NCBI RefSeq assembly: GCF_014199615.1
Contig: NZ_JACHOB010000002.1
Span: 410,001 to 474,000, forward strand
Direction of reading: 5' to 3'
Origin: Parvularcula dongshanensis
Lineage (GTDB): Bacteria > Pseudomonadota > Alphaproteobacteria > Caulobacterales > Parvularculaceae
DNA length: 64,000 nt
Positions 17,900 to 27,143 of this stretch are shown one piece after another; position 1 is the stretch's first letter, and every line of letters starts with the position of its first letter. Below the pieces are notes generated by a model. It had not been told where the DNA came from. It searched no databases and worked only from the letters and a program-made list of their open reading frames with translations. The position numbers and the translations under genes are program-made.

Positions 17900-19360
17900 T
17901 TAGTTGTGGCGGCGGAGGAAGGCGGGGATCTCCAGGTCTTCGGGCGTCTCGCCGAAGACATCGGCGTCGGCGCGGGGGCGGCGGGGGGCCGGCCCGGTGG
18001 GTTGCGGCGTCAGCGTCTTGCCGAGGGCGCCCCGCAGCGCGCCGATCGCGTCCGAGACCGGGCTCGCGGCCTTCTGCCCACGGAAGGGGTTGGGTCGCTG
18101 CTGCGGCGTGACGGACTGGCGGATCGGGGTCGGCTGGTCTTCGGTCAGGAGGCGCCGGATCCGTTCGTGCACGTCGCCGACCGGGTTGGCCGCGGCTTCC
18201 GCGGACAGGCTGCCCGCGTCGAAGGCGACGACCGAGGGCTCGTCCGCGGCCTCGGGGGCAGGCGCGGGCGCCTCTGCGACCGGTTCGGGAGCAGGCGCGG
18301 GTTCCGCGGCGGGGGCTTTGACGGCGTCGGCCGCGGCAGGCGCCGCCTTCGCGGCCGTTCCGGTGCGCGGTGCGGTCGGGACAGCCTCTTCGGCCGTCCG
18401 CTCGATGCCGGTCGCGACGACCGAGACGCGCATCGTGCCCTGCAGGTCCTGGCTGAAGGTCGAGCCGACGATGATGTTGGCGTCGGGATCGACCTCGGAG
18501 CGGATGCGGTTGGCCGCCTCGTCGACCTCGAAGAGCTTCATGTCGAGTCCGCCAGTGATGTTGATGAGCACGCCCTTGGCACCCTTCATCGAGGTCTCGT
18601 CGAGGAGCGGGTTCGAGATCGCGGCGGCAGCGGCGGCGGCGGCGCGGTTCTCGCCCGAGGCCTCGCCGGTGCCCATCATCGCCTTGCCCATCTCGGACAT
18701 GACCGCGCGCACGTCGGCGAAGTCGAGGTTGATGAGGCCGGGGACGATCATCAGGTCGGTGATGCCGCGCACGCCAGCGTGCAGGACCTCGTCCGCCATG
18801 GCGAAGGCGTCCTGGAAGGTGGTGTTCTCGTCGGCGAGGCGGAACAGGTTCTGGTTCGGGATGATCAGCAGCGTATCGACGTGGCGCTGCAGCTCCTCGA
18901 TGCCCTCCTCGGCGATCCGCATGCGGCGGGCGCCTTCGAAGTGGAAGGGCTTGGTGACGACGCCGACCGTCAGGATGCCGAGTTCACGCGCGGCCTTGGC
19001 GATGACGGGCGCGGCCCCCGTGCCGGTGCCGCCGCCCATGCCGGCGGTGATGAAGAGCATGTTCGAGCCTTCGATCAGGCCCATCACGTCCTCGATCGAC
19101 TCCTCGGCGGCCGCCTCGCCGATCTGAGGGCGCGAGCCGGCGCCGAGGCCACGGGTCACGTCGGTGCCGAGCTGCAGCTTGTGGGTCGCCTTGTTGAGGG
19201 CGACGGCCTGCGCGTCGGTGTTGGCGCAGACGAACTCGACGCCTTCGAGCTGCGCCTGGATCATGTTGTTGACCGCGTTGCCGCCAGCCCCGCCCACGCC
19301 GATCACGGTGATTTTAGGGGTGAGGTCGGTGAAGGCGGAAGCGTTCATGTTGAGCGGCAT
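17900..19360 (-). CDS. ftsZ: cell division tubulin homologue FtsZ, outside a dcw cluster
   Basis: The 486-residue FtsZ polymerises with GTP into the division ring. Residues 16-320 form the tubulin-like core, with [13 protein letters not shown] at 21-33 and the tubulin signature GGGTGTG at 109-115. The synergy loop region has the conserved acidic NLDFADVR. A long Ala/Pro-rich linker follows (about 330-470), ending in the conserved tail [12 protein letters not shown] that binds FtsA-like partners. The start ATG at 19360 has GGGG 6 nt upstream; an ATG at 19348 is an alternative. Unusually, no ftsA, ftsQ, murC or lpxC is adjacent: neighbours are a HEAT gene and an EF-hand gene. The 5' region holds a CtrA-like box and a GAATC site. 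It may be the sole ftsZ moved away from dcw, or a second copy. Confidence 0.96.
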
Positions 19361-19410
19361 GGGAGACCCCGAAGCTGGTGGCGGTATCAGGGTTAAAGGA
19401 TCGGTCAGCG

Positions 19411-19430
19411 AGGTTAGCGGACGGTTAACG
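19411..19430 (-). promoter_or_regulatory. CtrA-like box upstream of ftsZ
   Basis: Read on the ftsZ strand the element contains TTAA-N7-CTAAC, one base from the CtrA consensus TTAA-N7-TTAAC, and lies 51-70 bp before the start codon. An extra GTTAAC lies 3 bp further upstream, and a GAATC (GANTC class) is at 19451-19455. The whole 20-bp element recurs in the replication origin at 23178-23197 with two mismatches. Control by CtrA is inferred from what is known for Caulobacter ftsZ. Confidence 0.55.
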
Positions 19431-19487
19431 CCGTTAACGAAATGCACCCCGAATCGCAGCGTTGCAGCCTGTCCGGCCTGCACGAAG

Positions 19488-19518
19488 GAACGCGCCCCGG
19501 CGGTGCCGAGGCGCGTCC
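19488..19518 (-). terminator. hairpin after the EF-hand gene
   Basis: On the minus strand GGACGCGCC pairs with GGCGCGT plus a bulged T and CC; CGG and CCG pair inside the loop. TTCCTTCG follows from within the 3' arm. It lies 37 bp past the EF-hand stop codon, so it could insulate that gene from the ftsZ promoter region. Confidence 0.45.
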
Positions 19519-19554
19519 TGCAAGGCTCCTCTCCGGAGCGCGGGCAACAGGGTC

Positions 19555-20166
19555 CTAGTAGACCCCGCGGCCCGACTTCAGCGCCGCGAAGTTTTCGACC
19601 TCGTCGTCTTCCAGCATGGCGTTGCCGTCCATGTCGGCGTCGGCGAAGTCCGAACGGCGCGCGTCCTCCAACTCGTCGAGGCTCAGCGAGCCGTCGTCCC
19701 CGGCGATCATCGCGAACTTCGCCACCAGGTAATCCGAAGCGGTCATGCCACTCTCGCTCGGCGTCACGTCGGAACCCTCGTCGGCCGCATCGGCCTCCGC
19801 GACGACGGTGTCGGACATACCGGCTTCGGCATCAGCCGAGGTCGTCATAGCGGCCGATACGCCCGCATCTCCTGCCGCCGACATGATCGCCACGAACTCT
19901 TCCTGGGTGAGCAGGTCGTCGCCGTCGGCATCGGCCTCGGCGAACTCGTTGCGGGCCTGGGTGAGAGCGTCCTCTTCGGACAAGCCGCTGGCCGCGGGCT
20001 GCGTCTCGGCCGTCTCTACCGGCGCCGTCGGGTCGATGGCGGTCCCCTCTTCGGAGAGGATGCCGGCGTCCGCGGCGCGCTGATCGAGCGCGTCGTCCTG
20101 CTGCGCATGGGCGGCGCCGACGAGCACGAAGCCAGCGGCGGTGGTCATTGCGAGAAACTTGTTCAT
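19555..20166 (-). CDS. secreted EF-hand calcium-binding protein
   Basis: The protein has 203 residues and is very acidic. A signal peptide ([21 protein letters not shown]) directs it to the periplasm or outside. Two EF-hand loops fit the DxDx(D/N) spacing: [12 protein letters not shown] at 79-90 and [12 protein letters not shown] near the C-terminus. A degenerate third loop is [12 protein letters not shown]. The region between is Ala/Thr/Asp-rich and probably disordered. Related alphaproteobacterial EF-hand proteins have no agreed function; calcium buffering or signalling is possible. It is upstream of ftsZ on the same strand, but a hairpin lies between them. Confidence 0.82.
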
Positions 20167-20519
20167 GACTTAGTCCTCCGAAGTGCAACTCGCCCCGCCA
20201 TGGGGGCCCTATCGCTACGATGAAGTATGTAGGGAAGGCTTCTGTCCGAACTACGTTGTCTTCTTGATATTTTCGCCTTGGCTTGGATGAAGGTGCCTTA
20301 ATCTAAACTTCAATACTGCGAAGTTCACTCCTGTGGGAGTTCACGAACACTGGAGGAGAGAGAACGGCCGGCCTTTGTTACGGATCAGCTTCGTCCCCAA
20401 CGCACACTCCGTTATCGTGAGGGCCGTGATTCGAAGTTTCCCCGCCCCCCCGCCGATCCGCCGTGCCGATGAGAGTGCGGGGCGCCGACAGGGCGCCGGC
20501 GCGACACCGACGCACCGGC
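20167..20519. other. 353-bp intergenic region between divergent genes
   Basis: This gap separates the minus-strand EF-hand gene from the plus-strand FAD oxidoreductase gene. It is clearly less GC-rich between about 20222 and 20345 and must hold at least one promoter, but no convincing -35/-10 pair, operator or RNA gene was found. A small ACTCC-TGTG-GGAGT hairpin near 20328-20341 is too weak to call. Confidence 0.6.
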
Positions 20520-21632
20520 ATGGCTGAGATCGTCCTCGTCGGCGGGGGGCATGCCCACGCGCTCGTCCTCGCGCGTTGGGCGCGAGGGGCCCGTCCGGCG
20601 TCGCGGGTCACCCTCGTAACGCCGGAGCGGAGCGTGCCTTATACAGGCATGCTGCCTGGCTACGTCGCCGGACACTACCCGCGCGAGGCGCTGCGCATCG
20701 ACCTCTCCCGCCTTTGCGCCGCGATCGGCGCCCGTCTCGTCGAGGGGCGGGCCTGCGGCCTCGACGAGGGCACGGAGACCGTTCGGCTGGAGGACGGGCG
20801 TCTGCTTCCCTTTGATGTCCTGTCGCTCGACATCGGCATTCACGGGCGGACGGACGCTCTGCCCGGCCTTCGCGAGCACGGCGTCGGCGCAAAGCCGCTC
20901 GGCCCCTTCTCGACGGCTTGGGACGGCTTTCTCCGCGACGTCTCGCAAGGGGGCGCGGCGCCCGAAGCGGCGGTGATCGGCGGCGGCGTGGCGGGCGTCG
21001 AGCTCGCTTTGGCGATGGCGTTCCGCCTGCGCAACGAAAGGCGGGCCAAGGTCACGCTGATCGAGCGGTCCGAGCGCCTCCTCGAAGGCGCGCACGGACG
21101 GACGCGGCGAAGGCTCGCCGCCGCGCTGAACCTCTGGAGCGTTCGGGTGCTGACGGGCGCAGCGGTCGAAGCCGTCACGGAGCGCGGCGTGAGGTTGGAA
21201 GGCGGCGGCTTCGTCCCGGCGAGCCTCACCGTCGCGGCCACCGGCCCCGTGCCCTACCCCTGGCTCGAGACGACCGGGCTGACGCTCGAAGACGGATATG
21301 TCTCGGTCGACGGCTGCCTTCGGGCGCTCGGGCAGGCGCGGATCTTCGCGGCCGGGGACTGCGCTCACCTCACGCGCAGCCCTCGAGAGAAGGCCGGGGT
21401 CTACGCCGTGCGGGAGGCGCCGGTGCTCGCGGTCAACCTCTGCCGGGCCGTGGAGGGAAGGCGCGACCTCAAGCCTTACCGGCCGCAGCGGAACTACATG
21501 AAGCTGGTCTCGATGGGCGAGCGGCGGGCCGTGCTCGAACGCGGCCTCCTCTCGGTGTCCGGTGGCTGGGCGTGGCGCCTCAAGGACGAGATCGACCGGC
21601 GCTTCGTGAGCAGCCTGACCCCGCCGCGCTGA
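20520..21632 (+). CDS. FAD-dependent pyridine nucleotide-disulfide oxidoreductase, SelD-associated type
   Basis: The protein has 370 residues. The N-terminal dinucleotide fold reads VLVGGGHAHALVLARWA. Then come VPYTGMLPGYVAGHY and a second Rossmann motif VIGGGVAGVELALAMA, with the FAD site IFAAGDCAHL near the C-terminus. This pattern matches the family that is fused or adjacent to selenophosphate synthetase (SelD) in many bacteria and resembles NDH-2-like quinone reductases. No selD is visible here, so the role is open. The start is uncertain: ATG 20520 fits the family best but lacks a clear ribosome site; in-frame ATG 20469 and GTG 20463 exist. It converges with repA, ending 2 bp from its stop codon. 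Confidence 0.8.
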   Translation: MAEIVLVGGGHAHALVLARWARGARPASRVTLVTPERSVPYTGMLPGYVAGHYPREALRIDLSRLCAAIGARLVEGRACGLDEGTETVRLEDGRLLPFDVLSLDIGIHGRTDALPGLREHGVGAKPLGPFSTAWDGFLRDVSQGGAAPEAAVIGGGVAGVELALAMAFRLRNERRAKVTLIERSERLLEGAHGRTRRRLAAALNLWSVRVLTGAAVEAVTERGVRLEGGGFVPASLTVAATGPVPYPWLETTGLTLEDGYVSVDGCLRALGQARIFAAGDCAHLTRSPREKAGVYAVREAPVLAVNLCRAVEGRRDLKPYRPQRNYMKLVSMGERRAVLERGLLSVSGGWAWRLKDEIDRRFVSSLTPPR

Positions 21633-21634
21633 GC

Positions 21635-22741
21635 TCAGGCGTTGATCGGGTTGTTCTTCGCGTAGGTCGTGAAGAAGGCCAGGAACGCCGCGTCCGGCTT
21701 GCGGGGCGCCTCCTTGCCCTCGGCCCACCGCTTCCACTCCTCGAGCACGAAGTACTTGTCGTAGCCCGGGAACATGGCGCCCGCCCGCGTCAGCGCCTCG
21801 CCCGTGACGTGAAGGTCCGCGGGCCTGGCCCGCATTGGCGTCGCGGCCTCGGGTTCCAAGACCTCGATCCGTGCCGGGCCCCGGCCCGGCCGCCCCTTCG
21901 GCGTGAAGAGGACCTGCGGCGTCCTCTTCGTGATCTTCGGGTTGAAGCCTTCGGCCTGGATCATCCGCGCGCCGTCGCAATCGGGCACCTCGATGATGGC
22001 GACGTCGTATTCGGGGATCGACTGCCGCTCGGCGACCTCGCGCAGGGCCGCCTTGAACTTCGCGGCCCGGTCCTCCGAGCCCACCTTCAGCTGCAGCTTC
22101 TCGAGGCCGACGTGCCAACAGCGCTGCTGGCCGCAGTGGACGCGGGCGATCTCGTAGAGGCGCCGCTCGATCGGGGAGAGAGAGAAGTAGGCGAGGTCGT
22201 AGGTCAGGATCTTCTGATCCTTGATCAGCGCCCGGTAGAGCCAGTCGCAAAGCCGGACCTTCACCGCCGTCAGGCGCTTCTTGCCGTTCGCGTCCTTGGA
22301 GTAGCTGAGGCGCGCTTCGGACAGCCAGGAGAAGTAGCCGTCTTCGCCCTCGCCGCCCGCCTCGATGTTGGTCTTGATCTGCGTGCCTTGCAGCCGCTCG
22401 AGCGCGCCCTGGATCCTGTCGTAGGAGCGGGCCGAGCGGTTCCCGCCGATGACCCGAAGAAAGTCGTGCGCGGTGAAGGCGTAGTCCTGGCTCGGGGTCT
22501 CGCAGCGCTTCATCTGCGCGACGAGGAGGCTGGCGATGTAGAGCAGGATCTCCTTGTCGTAGATCGTCGCGACCCCGGTCTGCGAGGGGCGCACCTCAAT
22601 CGTGACGCAGTCGTCCTGATAGGTCACCGGCGTCATCCGGCGGCCCTTGGACAGCGCGAAGAAGGGGAAGGCCATGACCGAACGTTCGCCCTTCACCTTG
22701 CCGTGGAGCGGGCTGTCGAGTTCCGGCAGGGCGAGTTGCAT
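21635..22741 (-). CDS. repA: plasmid-type replication initiator RepA (RPA family)
   Basis: The protein has 368 residues. The sequence matches replication initiator protein A of alphaproteobacterial plasmids. The N-terminal MAFPFFALSKGRRMTPVTY is followed by VTIEVRPSQTGVATIYDKEILLY (in parts). A winged-helix-rich region contains YDRIQGALERLQGTQI and LSPIERRLYEIARVHCG, the latter close to the most conserved part of the family. The protein should bind iterons and open the origin. ATG 22741 has GGAAAG upstream; further in-frame starts would lie inside the iteron array. Its first upstream iteron begins 19 bp before the start codon, suggesting autoregulation. Immediately upstream is the origin; parA and parB lie 2.1 kb beyond it. 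Confidence 0.88.
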   Translation of the reverse strand: MQLALPELDSPLHGKVKGERSVMAFPFFALSKGRRMTPVTYQDDCVTIEVRPSQTGVATIYDKEILLYIASLLVAQMKRCETPSQDYAFTAHDFLRVIGGNRSARSYDRIQGALERLQGTQIKTNIEAGGEGEDGYFSWLSEARLSYSKDANGKKRLTAVKVRLCDWLYRALIKDQKILTYDLAYFSLSPIERRLYEIARVHCGQQRCWHVGLEKLQLKVGSEDRAAKFKAALREVAERQSIPEYDVAIIEVPDCDGARMIQAEGFNPKITKRTPQVLFTPKGRPGRGPARIEVLEPEAATPMRARPADLHVTGEALTRAGAMFPGYDKYFVLEEWKRWAEGKEAPRKPDAAFLAFFTTYAKNNPINA

Positions 22742-23149
22742 GGCGTCTTTCCGTCTTCGTCCCTCAAAGCACGAGCCCTGAGTCGCATGTGTCCCAGACT
22801 GACTCACTCCGGGACGGAGTCATCCGATTCGGCTCGTGCTTTCGAGGACAGGTCCCCGAAAGCACGAGCCTATGCACGCCCAGGGCGGGCTTGGGGGGCT
22901 CAGTTTCCCCCAAAAGGGCGGTTCGGCGACTCGATTCGTGCCTTCGGGGACGAATCGGCGGGGGCGGCGCGACTCAGTCGTGCTTTTGGGGACTCACCGA
23001 GTCCGCGATTCGATCAAGCCCGAATCGCACGCTTCGTTTTGCACCGGGAACGGTCGTGCCTGGACCGGTGGGTCGTCCCCGAAAGCACGAGCGGCGGGGT
23101 GCGTTCCCCCTCATCCTCCCGAAGGGAAACCTCCGGCCGCGCAGCGGGA

Positions 23150-23218
23150 TTTAGAATCTAGGGTTAGGAAGGTTAAAAGGTTAGCAGTCGGTTAACGCAC
23201 TGATCTTGCGAGATTCTT
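23150..23218. other. AT-rich core with four GGTTA repeats, candidate unwinding element
   Basis: This is the least GC-rich part of the origin, from TTTAGAATC to GAGATTCTTTC. GGTTA occurs at 23162, 23171, 23179 and 23190, read as TAACC on the repA strand. Such short AT-rich direct repeats between iteron blocks are typical of DNA unwinding elements. Confidence 0.6.
23178..23197 (-). promoter_or_regulatory. CtrA-like box in the origin core
   Basis: The minus strand reads TTAA-N7-CTAAC inside AGGTTAGC-N4-GGTTAACG (plus strand). It is 18/20 identical to the element upstream of ftsZ at 19411-19430. In Caulobacter, CtrA binds TTAA-N7-TTAAC in the origin and represses initiation; an equivalent role here is inference. 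Confidence 0.55.
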
Positions 23219-23451
23219 TCGCGGACTACGTCCCCGTTCCCACGAAGAACGGTCCGCGTTGCCACGAAGGGACGATCCGTGATGACACGAGCACCCATCC
23301 GCGAAGTCACGAAGGACAGCCGCCGGCGGTCCCCGTTCGCACGAACCAGGTTCTACCCAGACAAGTCCTCGAACCCACGAACCGAATCGTCTTCGTGCGA
23401 TGACGGACTCGGCTTCCTATCTGTTCCCCTCGACCGCTTCGGGAGCCCGCC

Positions 23452-24687: not shown

Positions 24688-24814
24688 CGCTTGCGAACGG
24701 ACGGAAAGCCTCGGCGCGCCGTCGCGTTCGTCGGGGCCTGCTGCGGTTCGCAGGGCGCGTCCCCTCGAAGCGCCGCAAAGCGTTAAGGCGGCGTTCATCT
24801 TTACCTTGGTTAAT

Positions 24815-24830
24815 AGCGGGTGAACCCGCT
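24815..24830. promoter_or_regulatory. palindromic operator candidate before parA
   Basis: The inverted repeat AGCGGGT-GA-ACCCGCT (7-bp arms, 2-bp centre) ends 14 bp before the parA start codon. ParA proteins with an N-terminal DNA-binding domain repress their own operon through such sites, so this is a likely ParA operator. A TTAA-N7-TTCA, a poor CtrA-box match, lies 17 bp upstream at 24783-24797. Confidence 0.5.
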
Positions 24831-24844
24831 GCCGAGGACCCGCC

Positions 24845-26062
24845 ATGTCCGCCGCGCCGAAGCTCGACGCCGCTACAGAAGAAACCCCCGCTGCCGACGC
24901 GTCGTTGGAGCGCATCCGACGGCTGGTCCGCGTTGCCGACGGCATTTTGAGCTCCATGCGGCAGATCGCGGATGAGCGGCAGCGCGAGACGAGCGGGCGG
25001 CGCTACAAGCTGACCGAAGTCTCGGAGATGCTGGACAAGTCCGTGGACGCGATCCGGCGCGCGGAGGCGGCGGGCCTCCTGCCCCAGCCCGAGTTCAGGC
25101 CGTCCGGGCAGCGCCTCGGCTACACCCTCGCCGAGGTGAACCGGATGCGGGACCACTTCGGGCGCCGGCCTTGGCGGGCGGCGGACGACGAGCCCGTTCT
25201 CCTCGCGGTCCAGAACTTCAAGGGCGGGGTCGGCAAGTCGACCATCGCCGTGCACGCCGCGCAGCACCTCGCCGAGCGCGGCTACCGTGTGCTGATCGTG
25301 GATGCGGACAGCCAGGCCTCGACCACGACGCTCTTCGGCTTCAACCCGGACCGCGACATCGAGGTCGAGGACACGCTGCTGCCCTACCTGATCGGAGACC
25401 GGGCCGACGGGCTAGGCTACGCGGCGCGCGCGACCCATTGGGACGGGCTCGACCTGATCCCCGCGAACCTCGGGCTCTACTCGGCCGAGTACATCATCAG
25501 TCAGCAAGTGAAGGGCAACGTCGCGCTCCTCTCGCGCATGAAGACGGGCCTGCGCGAGGTCGCGCGGAACTACGACGTGGTCGTCATCGACCCGCCGCCC
25601 GCGCTCGGCATGATCTCGCTCTCGGTCTTGCAGGCCGCGAACGCGATCCTGATCCCGACGCCGCCGAGCTCCATCGACTTCGCATCGACCGCCGCCTACC
25701 TCTCCATGCTCGAAGAGGTCGTCGAGACCCTGGTCGAGACGTTGCGTCTGCCGGTCGCCTACAGCTTCGTCTCGCTCCTCGCGACCAAGATCACGCCCGC
25801 CAAGGGCGCCCACGAGGCGATGCGCGAGGTGATGGGCCACTGCTTCGGCCGGGACATCCTGCCGACCGCCCTCCTCGACTCGGCGGAGTTCGACACGGCG
25901 TCGGTCGAGATGCGCACCGTCTACGAGCATGATGGCGCGACTACGAAGACGCACAAGCGCTGCCGCAACAACCTCGCCGCGGTGATGGGCGACCTCGAGA
26001 CCCAAATCCGCAGGACTTGGCCGAGCTACAGGGCGGCTCTTCGCGCCGAGGGCATCGCCTGA
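24845..26062 (+). CDS. parA: partition ATPase ParA with N-terminal DNA-binding domain
   Basis: The protein has 405 residues. Residues 52-103 form a MerR-like helix-turn-helix (YKLTEVSEMLDKSVDAIRRAE, in parts, then LGYTLAEVNRM). The ATPase follows with the deviant Walker A KGGVGKST at 126-133, the Walker A' region VLIVDADSQAS and the Walker B VVVIDPPPALG. This is the type Ia (P1/RepA-like) ParA architecture of plasmids and secondary chromosomes, in which the ATPase moves ParB-parS complexes over the nucleoid and represses its own operon. The candidate operator is just upstream. Its stop codon directly abuts the first parS-like palindrome, and parB starts 82 bp later. Confidence 0.93.
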   Translation: MSAAPKLDAATEETPAADASLERIRRLVRVADGILSSMRQIADERQRETSGRRYKLTEVSEMLDKSVDAIRRAEAAGLLPQPEFRPSGQRLGYTLAEVNRMRDHFGRRPWRAADDEPVLLAVQNFKGGVGKSTIAVHAAQHLAERGYRVLIVDADSQASTTTLFGFNPDRDIEVEDTLLPYLIGDRADGLGYAARATHWDGLDLIPANLGLYSAEYIISQQVKGNVALLSRMKTGLREVARNYDVVVIDPPPALGMISLSVLQAANAILIPTPPSSIDFASTAAYLSMLEEVVETLVETLRLPVAYSFVSLLATKITPAKGAHEAMREVMGHCFGRDILPTALLDSAEFDTASVEMRTVYEHDGATTKTHKRCRNNLAAVMGDLETQIRRTWPSYRAALRAEGIA

Positions 26063-26080
26063 GCGTGCACCCGTGCACGC
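26063..26080. promoter_or_regulatory. parS-like palindrome 1
   Basis: GCGTGCAC-CC-GTGCACGC, with perfect 8-bp arms, starts on the base after the parA stop codon. The same arms recur 24 bp further on and after parB. Confidence 0.7.
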
Positions 26081-26103
26081 TCCTCGGAGACAGCGAGTGA
26101 TCG

Positions 26104-26121
26104 GCGTGCACCGGTGCACGC
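26104..26121. promoter_or_regulatory. parS-like palindrome 2
   Basis: GCGTGCAC-CG-GTGCACGC is a perfect 18-bp palindrome in the parA-parB gap. Its start is 41 bp from that of palindrome 1 (about four helical turns) and it ends 23 bp before the parB start codon. ParB binding here would nucleate the partition complex. Confidence 0.7.
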
Positions 26122-26144
26122 CTCAGTTTCAGGAAGGGACGAAG

Positions 26145-27143
26145 ATGCCAGCACGGAAGAAGTCGCTCGCGCTCGCCGACGCGATCGCGTCGCAAATCGC
26201 CGAAGACGGGGCGAAGGACACGCCCGCACCGATGCCCAAGAAGCGGGCCTACGCCGCCTCGCGCGAGGGGCTGTTGCAGGACCTAGGCGACGGCAGGCTG
26301 CAGAACGGCAAGATCCGCCTCGTGGATCCCGGGCGCTGCCGCATGTGGGCGGGACACAATAGGCTCTACCACCTTCTGAGCCCGAAGAGCTGCGGCACGC
26401 TGATCGATTCGATCAAGGCGCTGGGGCGCCAGGAGACGCCTGCGATCGTCCGGCCTGTCTCCGGCGATCCCGACTACGACTACGAAGTGATCTGCGGCGC
26501 GCGGCGGCACTTCGCCGTCAGCCATCTGCGCGAGGTCGAGCACCGCACGGACCTTCGCTACCTTGTCGACGTCCGCGAGGTGTCGGACGAGGAGGCGTTC
26601 CGGATCTCGGACGCGGAGAACCGCGACCGCGAGGACATCTCTGACTACGAACGCGCCGCCGACTACGCGCGCGCGCTGAGCCTCTACTACGACGGCAACA
26701 AGGCGCTGATGGCCGAGCGCATCGGCGTCGACCGCACCTGGCTCTCGCGCTTCGTCCGCATCGCCGCGCTACCGGAGGAAGTCGTGTCGGCTTACGGCGA
26801 CGCCCGCCGCCTCGGTATCCGTCATGCGAGCGAGCTCTTCCCGCTGCTCTCGAAGCCGGGCCAGCGGACGCGGGTCGTGGACGAAGCGATGCGGATCGCC
26901 CTCGAGCAGAACGGCCGCAGCCATACCGGTCGTACCCTGATCGAACCGCGGGCCGTACTCTGCCGTCTGAAGGAAGCGGCGGAGGGCAAGCGCGACGAGC
27001 GAGTCGTCGCCCGGCGGGACACGGCGGGCCGGGCGCTGTTCCGCCTCGAGCACCGCGCCCGCAGCGTCGTGGTGACGATCCCGCGCGAGCGTCTCGCCGC
27101 GCTGGAGGAGGTGCTTGGCAGTCTCAAGGACGAGCTGAGCTGA
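26145..27143 (+). CDS. parB: partition protein ParB (CTPase, parS-binding)
   Basis: The protein has 332 residues. The ParB N-terminal domain has the CTP-binding GARRHFAV at 118-125, corresponding to the GERRxRA box, and ENRDREDISDYERA at 158-171, the ENxxRxDLxxxE box. A helix-turn-helix about 185-206 contains AERIGVDRTWLSRFVRIA, followed by a C-terminal dimerisation region. ParB loads on parS as a CTP-dependent clamp. The ATG at 26145 has AGGAAGGG upstream; an earlier in-frame start at 26073 would overlap both palindromes and has no domain content. It forms an operon with parA and is flanked by three parS-like sites. Confidence 0.92.
   Translation: MPARKKSLALADAIASQIAEDGAKDTPAPMPKKRAYAASREGLLQDLGDGRLQNGKIRLVDPGRCRMWAGHNRLYHLLSPKSCGTLIDSIKALGRQETPAIVRPVSGDPDYDYEVICGARRHFAVSHLREVEHRTDLRYLVDVREVSDEEAFRISDAENRDREDISDYERAADYARALSLYYDGNKALMAERIGVDRTWLSRFVRIAALPEEVVSAYGDARRLGIRHASELFPLLSKPGQRTRVVDEAMRIALEQNGRSHTGRTLIEPRAVLCRLKEAAEGKRDERVVARRDTAGRALFRLEHRARSVVVTIPRERLAALEEVLGSLKDELS

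Follow-up and report, generated by a model that had tools for sequence, protein, structure and literature searches.

Does one regulator act both on cell division and on the replication of a plasmid-type replicon? The question is raised by a 64,000-nucleotide stretch of Parvularcula dongshanensis DNA, called here the window, in which a 20-bp element, AGGTTAGC-N4-GGTTAACG, is found upstream of the division gene ftsZ (19411-19430) and again, in the same orientation and with 18 of 20 bases identical, in the presumed origin of a replicon (23178-23197). An earlier note on this DNA had likened the two copies to CtrA boxes, by which division could be tied to the firing of a plasmid-type replicon. As will be seen below, this interpretation is right at ftsZ and plausible but unconserved at the origin, where the conserved cell-cycle signature is a cluster of GANTC, the sites of CcrM. 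The window itself seems to hold the origin from which a second chromosome, of plasmid descent, replicates, with the only ftsZ of the genome about four kilobases away.

Two copies of a rare element

The positions, the orientation and the identity of the two copies were confirmed by a sequence check. Read on the minus strand, each copy is TTAACC-N5-CTAACC and lies one base off the CtrA box TTAA-N7-TTAAC, as the earlier note had said. A matrix derived from ftsZ sites gives exactly the same score, 21.1, to the ftsZ site and to the origin site. When up to three mismatches are allowed, these two copies are the only ones in the window; shuffled sequences contained 0.06 on average, and two were reached in 2 of 100 shuffles. 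In the whole genome, a draft of 3,134,647 bases, the 18-base core GGTTAGC-N4-GGTTAAC has two exact matches, both in the window. Nine matches are listed in all, the other seven requiring two mismatches, against three in all for a control in which the core was read backwards. The element cannot be the common dispersed repeat that the earlier note had reckoned with, because only two exact matches exist genome-wide, and this candidate was rejected.

A conserved and very probable CtrA box upstream of ftsZ

The ATG of ftsZ is located at 19360-19358, with 50 bases between it and the element. One ftsZ locus is present in each of the ten genomes of the genus (the match being in two pieces in G052). Between -77 and -67, on one strand or the other, all ten, P. 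dongshanensis included, carry a box that departs from TTAA-N7-TTAAC by no more than one base, followed by TGACCGATCC-TTTAACC or by a more or less close form of it. A box was also looked for elsewhere in the family, at the best 20 loci of the 48 extra-genus genomes with an ftsZ match. TTAAC-N6-BTAAC was found in 20 of 20 (one mismatch or none, no more than 200 bp away, only 165 bp being available for one locus), shuffles giving a mean of 0.47, and several of these boxes read TTAACCATTTGGTAAC. In Caulobacter, CtrA binds TTAA-N7-TTAA and TTAA-N7-CTAA at the Ps promoter of hemE, as mentioned in a paper on pilA (PMC11264516); the second half of the ftsZ box is of the CTAA kind. The earlier note had also considered that a ctrA gene might be lacking; the genome contains one (NF045991, 428 bits for a cut-off of 350). 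The CtrA-box claim at ftsZ is thus borne out by conservation, and the site is, to judge from its sequence, very probably a CtrA box. The GAATC seen upstream of ftsZ at 19451 is present as well. The control by CcrM that had been attached to it is unsupported, since its position is not kept in the congeners, two of which (G052 and G057) have no GANTC within 300 bp.

The wider distribution of the form was investigated by a genome scan for TTAAC-N6-STAAC with at most one mismatch. It returned 35 places, against 22 for the backward-read control, so that this loose pattern taken alone is only modestly enriched. Eleven of the 35 were inspected besides ftsZ and the origin. Six of them are adjacent to genes of the cell cycle, the wall or replication, namely a CckA-like gene (a weak, truncated piece with 40.6 bits for a cut-off of 1000), parC, a LysM/M23 gene, nrdA, an amidase gene and a second parA. 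The other five, including L052, an exact match (six places match exactly), have no clear neighbor of this kind. These neighborhoods lend mild support to the CtrA reading of the form.

A plasmid-type origin and its ladder

The description of the replicon as plasmid-type is supported: an initiator of the replication initiator protein A (RPA) family is encoded beside iterons and parAB, which is the organization of an RPA-type iteron replicon. Orthologs of this Rep, 74-85% identical, were found in five of the nine other genomes of the genus (P. oceani, P. mediterranea, P. lutaonensis, P. maris and the Parvularculaceae metagenome-assembled genome DT_81). Rep at such identity is absent from the congeners G050, G052 and G057, and G058 has only relatives of 35-39% identity. 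A 19-nt inverted pair at 22831-22870, within the rep-side iterons, is a possible rep operator. A scan of the six second origins for DnaA boxes (TTWTNCACA, at most one mismatch) gave none in four species, one exact TTTTCCACA in P. oceani, and TTTTGCACC, with one mismatch, in P. dongshanensis and P. oceani.

Between the iterons, all six of the close rep loci in the genus have a ladder of GTTA or GATTA rungs, mostly spaced by 8-9 bases. Four rungs within 40 bases are found in five of the six species and were reached by none of 60 shuffles, while the three rungs of P. lutaonensis were reached by 6 of 60. In P. dongshanensis the second copy of the 20-mer constitutes the last two rungs, 11 bases apart. 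The AT-rich core in which the earlier note had placed it is real, with 59% AT at 23152-23197 for 31% in the window. Of ten other RPA plasmid loci, three have a similar ladder, the 1.18-Mb and 296-kb replicons of Indioceanicola profundi and a Tateyamaria plasmid (0 of 60 shuffles in each case). The CtrA-type scores at these distant ladders are low, from 2 to 8 (L081, L083, L201), so that a ladder can accompany an RPA origin without a CtrA-type box. Because it adjoins direct iterons and recurs both within the genus and at some other RPA loci, the ladder would most readily be taken for the site at which a plasmid-type RPA/iteron origin unwinds.

The CtrA-type match at the origin was then scored in the six species with the matrix of the ten ftsZ sites, the species' own site being left out. 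The best scores were 20.5 in P. dongshanensis, 16.9 in P. lutaonensis, 13.0 in P. oceani, 11.7 in P. mediterranea, 10.2 in P. maris and 8.4 in DT_81, values reached respectively by 0, 0, 7, 8, 40 and 97 of 300 shuffles. Another null was provided by random ladders, which scored at least 16 in 3.0% of cases and at least 20 in 0.8%, to be compared with origin scores of 21.1 in P. dongshanensis and 16.5 in P. lutaonensis. In sampled DNA of the congeners, only four places in 1,160 kb scored at least 16.5. In two species the origin match thus exceeds the nulls, whereas no strong CtrA box has been kept there in the remaining four. The conservation of the two sites, for which the earlier note had asked, holds at ftsZ and fails at the origin. 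Judged on its sequence, the origin copy probably has a double nature: it belongs to a plasmid-type unwinding ladder and, in this species, makes a good CtrA-type box in addition.

A GANTC cluster conserved in six origins

Sixteen GANTC sites are found in 710 bp across the origin of P. dongshanensis, when no other 710-bp stretch of the window has more than 4. The six origins contain 16, 16, 7, 12, 10 and 12 sites in 594-744 bp, for 2.3-2.4 predicted from composition. In the relatives there are at most 6 sites in 623 bp over 38 sampled 20-kb pieces of P. mediterranea contigs C1 and C2, and at most 5 in 620 bp over 20 sampled pieces of P. lutaonensis C2. At nine hemE loci the maxima range from 3 to 7 in 600 bp (7 in P. 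maris, 6 in P. dongshanensis), and in the 700 bp upstream of rep the counts at ten RPA plasmid loci go from 0 to 9. The cluster is therefore dense and conserved, and the genome has a ccrM candidate (588 bits, under the curated cut-off of 830). CcrM is consequently a better-supported cell-cycle link of the origin than CtrA is, GANTC being strongly clustered there, while the GAATC at ftsZ is not conserved.

Both sequence and analogy suggest that CcrM may help to time this origin. In Caulobacter, initiation is said to need methylated GANTC in the origin (PMC2865523), a statement contradicted in a 2018 review, where CcrM is said not to be required for initiation (PMC6090056). The former article also mentions that methylation of the GATC in its sites greatly improves binding by the initiator of Vibrio chromosome II, and the latter notes the existence of GANTC-rich repABC origins.

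A probable second chromosome

The nature of the replicon is most visible in P. mediterranea, in which contig C2 holds rep, the only ftsZ and dnaA. The first 5,756 bases of C2 are identical to its last 5,756 bases, the two ends of C1 lie in one tandem repeat, and the ends of C1 and C2 share no sequence. Because of these identical ends, which have nothing in common with those of C1, C2 is most simply explained as circular, with a size of about 1.36 Mb, next to a C1 of 1.73 Mb. The replicon of P. mediterranea thus looks like a circular 1.36-Mb second chromosome, combining, as far as a draft assembly indicates, the separate circle, the core genes and the plasmid-type replication that characterize a chromid. 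The 1.08-Mb C2 of P. lutaonensis also carries rep, ftsZ and dnaA. Seventeen of its 20 sampled pieces match sampled pieces of P. mediterranea, and for 14 of them the order along C2 is inverted; of the remaining three matches, two are to P. mediterranea C2 out of order and one to C1. In P. dongshanensis, five open reading frames of the window match the sampled P. mediterranea C2, and pieces of its own C1, C4 and C6 have respectively 1, 4 and 2 that match the sampled P. mediterranea C1, numbers kept low by the fact that only samples were compared. The GC skew supports the origin only weakly, passing from -0.032 to +0.061 across rep in P. mediterranea C2; no clear pattern is visible in the sampled C2 of P. 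lutaonensis.

Whereas P. mediterranea and P. lutaonensis have dnaA on the second chromosome, in P. dongshanensis this gene is found on C1 and not on the contig of the window. The probable origin of chromosome I lies upstream of hemE (G000:C1, near 574,095). CtrA-type boxes with at most one mismatch are present upstream of hemE at six of nine loci of the genus, that of P. dongshanensis having one mismatch; DT_81 (G056), in which hemE is in pieces, was left out of this comparison.

Which explanation fits both sites?

From the observed sequences, conservation and gene content, a series of binding and regulatory steps can be proposed. CtrA probably times ftsZ transcription through the upstream box. 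The RPA initiator would probably bind the iterons and open the DNA at the ladder. In P. dongshanensis and P. lutaonensis, phosphorylated CtrA (CtrA~P) could cover the box at the edge of the ladder and hold back initiation. In all six species compared, methylation by CcrM of the GANTC sites around the iterons could limit firing to once per cycle, by analogy with the Dam sites of the Vibrio chromosome II origin. As a whole, the combination of a CtrA box at ftsZ, a ladder serving as unwinding element and GANTC as the common cell-cycle handle is considered the best explanation, and a probable one.

Several points weigh against it. The genome is a draft of 16 contigs in which the replicon is not closed, and the skew signal is noisy, the next piece of P. 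mediterranea C2, after the turn across rep, falling back to -0.042. The ladder is missing from seven of the ten RPA plasmid loci and from a Pelagibius locus (L184), where the origins may fall outside the stretch inspected. A strong CtrA-type match is absent from four of the six origins (best scores 7-13), including that of P. oceani, the nearest species by Rep, and the match of P. lutaonensis, TTAACGCCGGCGTAAGG, is on the other strand. The ladder null includes the ladder of the window, and the window was picked because of the match. The ccrM candidate, finally, does not attain its cut-off.

The more ambitious explanation, in which CtrA binds both sites and couples ftsZ transcription to the firing of the replicon, the origin site being selected for this control, is quite possible but falls short of probable. 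The equal scores of the two sites, the rarity of such scores under the ladder null (0.8% for at least 20), the second match at the ladder edge in P. lutaonensis and the boxes at hemE all argue in its favor. It is weakened by the lack of a strong origin match in P. oceani, P. maris, P. mediterranea and DT_81, and by the ladder, which accounts in part for the origin sequence. Of the reading proposed in the earlier note, the ftsZ box and the type of replicon are supported, and the conservation of the origin box, strong in two of six species, is not. Two facts, a ladder found without such a box in distant RPA replicons and a strong box missing from four of the six species, would be expected if the resemblance were a coincidence. 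The CtrA box of ftsZ and the unwinding ladder of the origin would then be unrelated elements, each built from GTTA words spaced by roughly a helical turn, with CtrA idle at the origin. This possibility is regarded as somewhat doubtful, a match of ftsZ grade being rare even among random ladders and sites scoring at least 16.5 being so scarce in the sampled congener DNA.

It is improbable that both sites are bound by another regulator of the OmpR type or by a protein of the replicon (Rep, ParA or ParB). Forty-eight matches to the CtrA model were found in the genome, one of them over the cut-off, which indicates that response regulators or receiver domains are numerous and leaves room for such a protein. 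The ftsZ box is nevertheless kept in congeners devoid of this rep (G050, G052 and G057) and so cannot be a Rep or Par site of the replicon, a candidate that was rejected as common to both places; CenR was rejected likewise, its motif TGA-N8-TGA, as given in PMC9275681, being different from the element.

Comparison with known systems

The preferred explanation, with CtrA at ftsZ, an unwinding ladder at the origin and GANTC as common handle, has parallels in several systems. As in Caulobacter, where the CtrA boxes of hemE stand beside the origin (PMC11264516) and ftsZ is under CtrA control (PMC2877005), ctrA and a ccrM candidate are present. Unlike Caulobacter, the origin is of the plasmid RPA/iteron type, the box is strong in only two of six species, and the case is made by sequence matches. 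Chromosome II of Vibrio cholerae similarly combines an iteron origin with dense adenine-methylation sites, but these are RctB iterons and Dam GATC (PMC2865523) in place of an RPA initiator and CcrM GANTC. The repABC chromids of alphaproteobacteria share the status of second replicon and a GANTC-rich origin (PMC6090056); they differ by the absence of an RPA initiator with iterons, and iteron chromids are assigned in the same review to the beta- and gammaproteobacteria. There is also a resemblance to RPA plasmids, whose initiators are 36-61% identical among the 40 matches listed (54% for the 1.18-Mb replicon of I. profundi) and which include the two ladder-bearing replicons of that organism, although the ten loci compared are mostly poorer in GANTC.

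No paper on a Parvularcula second chromosome or on CtrA at an RPA origin appeared in the lists given by the literature searches. It is put forward tentatively that the second chromosome, on which the only ftsZ is found (and, in two species, dnaA), replicates from a plasmid RPA/iteron origin brought doubly under cell-cycle control, through a CcrM cluster in six of six species and, in two of six, through a CtrA box lodged in the unwinding element. If this were true, one CtrA pulse would block the firing of chromosome II and time ftsZ, located in P. dongshanensis about 4 kb from that origin. This bears on the timing of second chromosomes in alphaproteobacteria, the 2018 review (PMC6090056) reporting that no mechanism linking the replicons of these bacteria had been described. 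The genus offers a natural experiment in this respect, with close relatives having or lacking the replicon and having or lacking a strong CtrA-type origin box. The contrast between an ftsZ box kept in all ten genomes, a GANTC cluster kept in all six origins and a strong origin box kept in two would show how a plasmid origin becomes tamed into a chromosome origin.

Features of the region and side observations

Table 1. Coordinates in the window of the features of the ftsZ-origin region.
Feature	Position	Strand	Remarks
ftsZ	17900..19360	-	PF00091 + PF12327; one match in the genome, only copy found
Second half-site pair, TGACC-GATCC-TTTAACC	19391..19407	-	Upstream of ftsZ; this or a close form kept
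First 20-bp copy	19411..19430	-	CtrA-type box TTAACC-N5-CTAACC at 19412-19428, upstream of the ftsZ start
GAATC (GANTC)	19451..19455		Upstream of ftsZ; position not conserved
rep, replication initiator protein A (RPA family)	21635..22741	-	PF10134 218 bits, Rep3_N 29.5 bits
Rep-side iterons (GTCCCCGAAAGCACGA and inverse)	22757..23093		Repeat analysis; counterparts in relatives by eye
GANTC (CcrM) sites, 16	22780..23410		Across the origin
GTTA ladder	23162..23197	+	Rungs at 23162, 23171, 23179 and 23190; proposed unwinding element
Second 20-bp copy	23178..23197	-	CtrA-type box TTAACCGACTGCTAACC at 23179-23195, minus strand
Far-side iterons (GTCCCCGTTCCCACGAA type), direct repeats	23230..23381	+	Repeat analysis
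CtrA-like TTAA-N7-TGAAC	24810..24825	+	Just upstream of parA; possibly another CtrA site; same form in P. oceani (L031, ~14597)
parA, plasmid partition ATPase	24845..26062	+	AAA_31/CbiA/ParA; orthologs 71-85% identical
parB, centromere-binding protein	26073..27143	+	SoPB_HTH; orthologs 53-69% identical

The region upstream of parA differs between species. Between the iterons and parA, an inverted repeat of the GCTGCAGTTTTCG type was noticed by eye in three congeners (L033-L035), with a weaker form in L032; it was not seen in P. dongshanensis or P. oceani, where a gene for a luciferase-like monooxygenase stands between the origin and parA. Another parA-parB pair, likewise of the RepA/SopA type, is located at G000:C4:102615-104940 (L185, 7616-9941). 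No rep was seen with it in the 20-kb piece, its parA is preceded 60 bp upstream by the CtrA-type box TTAACGACCGATTAAC, and its neighborhood matches P. mediterranea C1.

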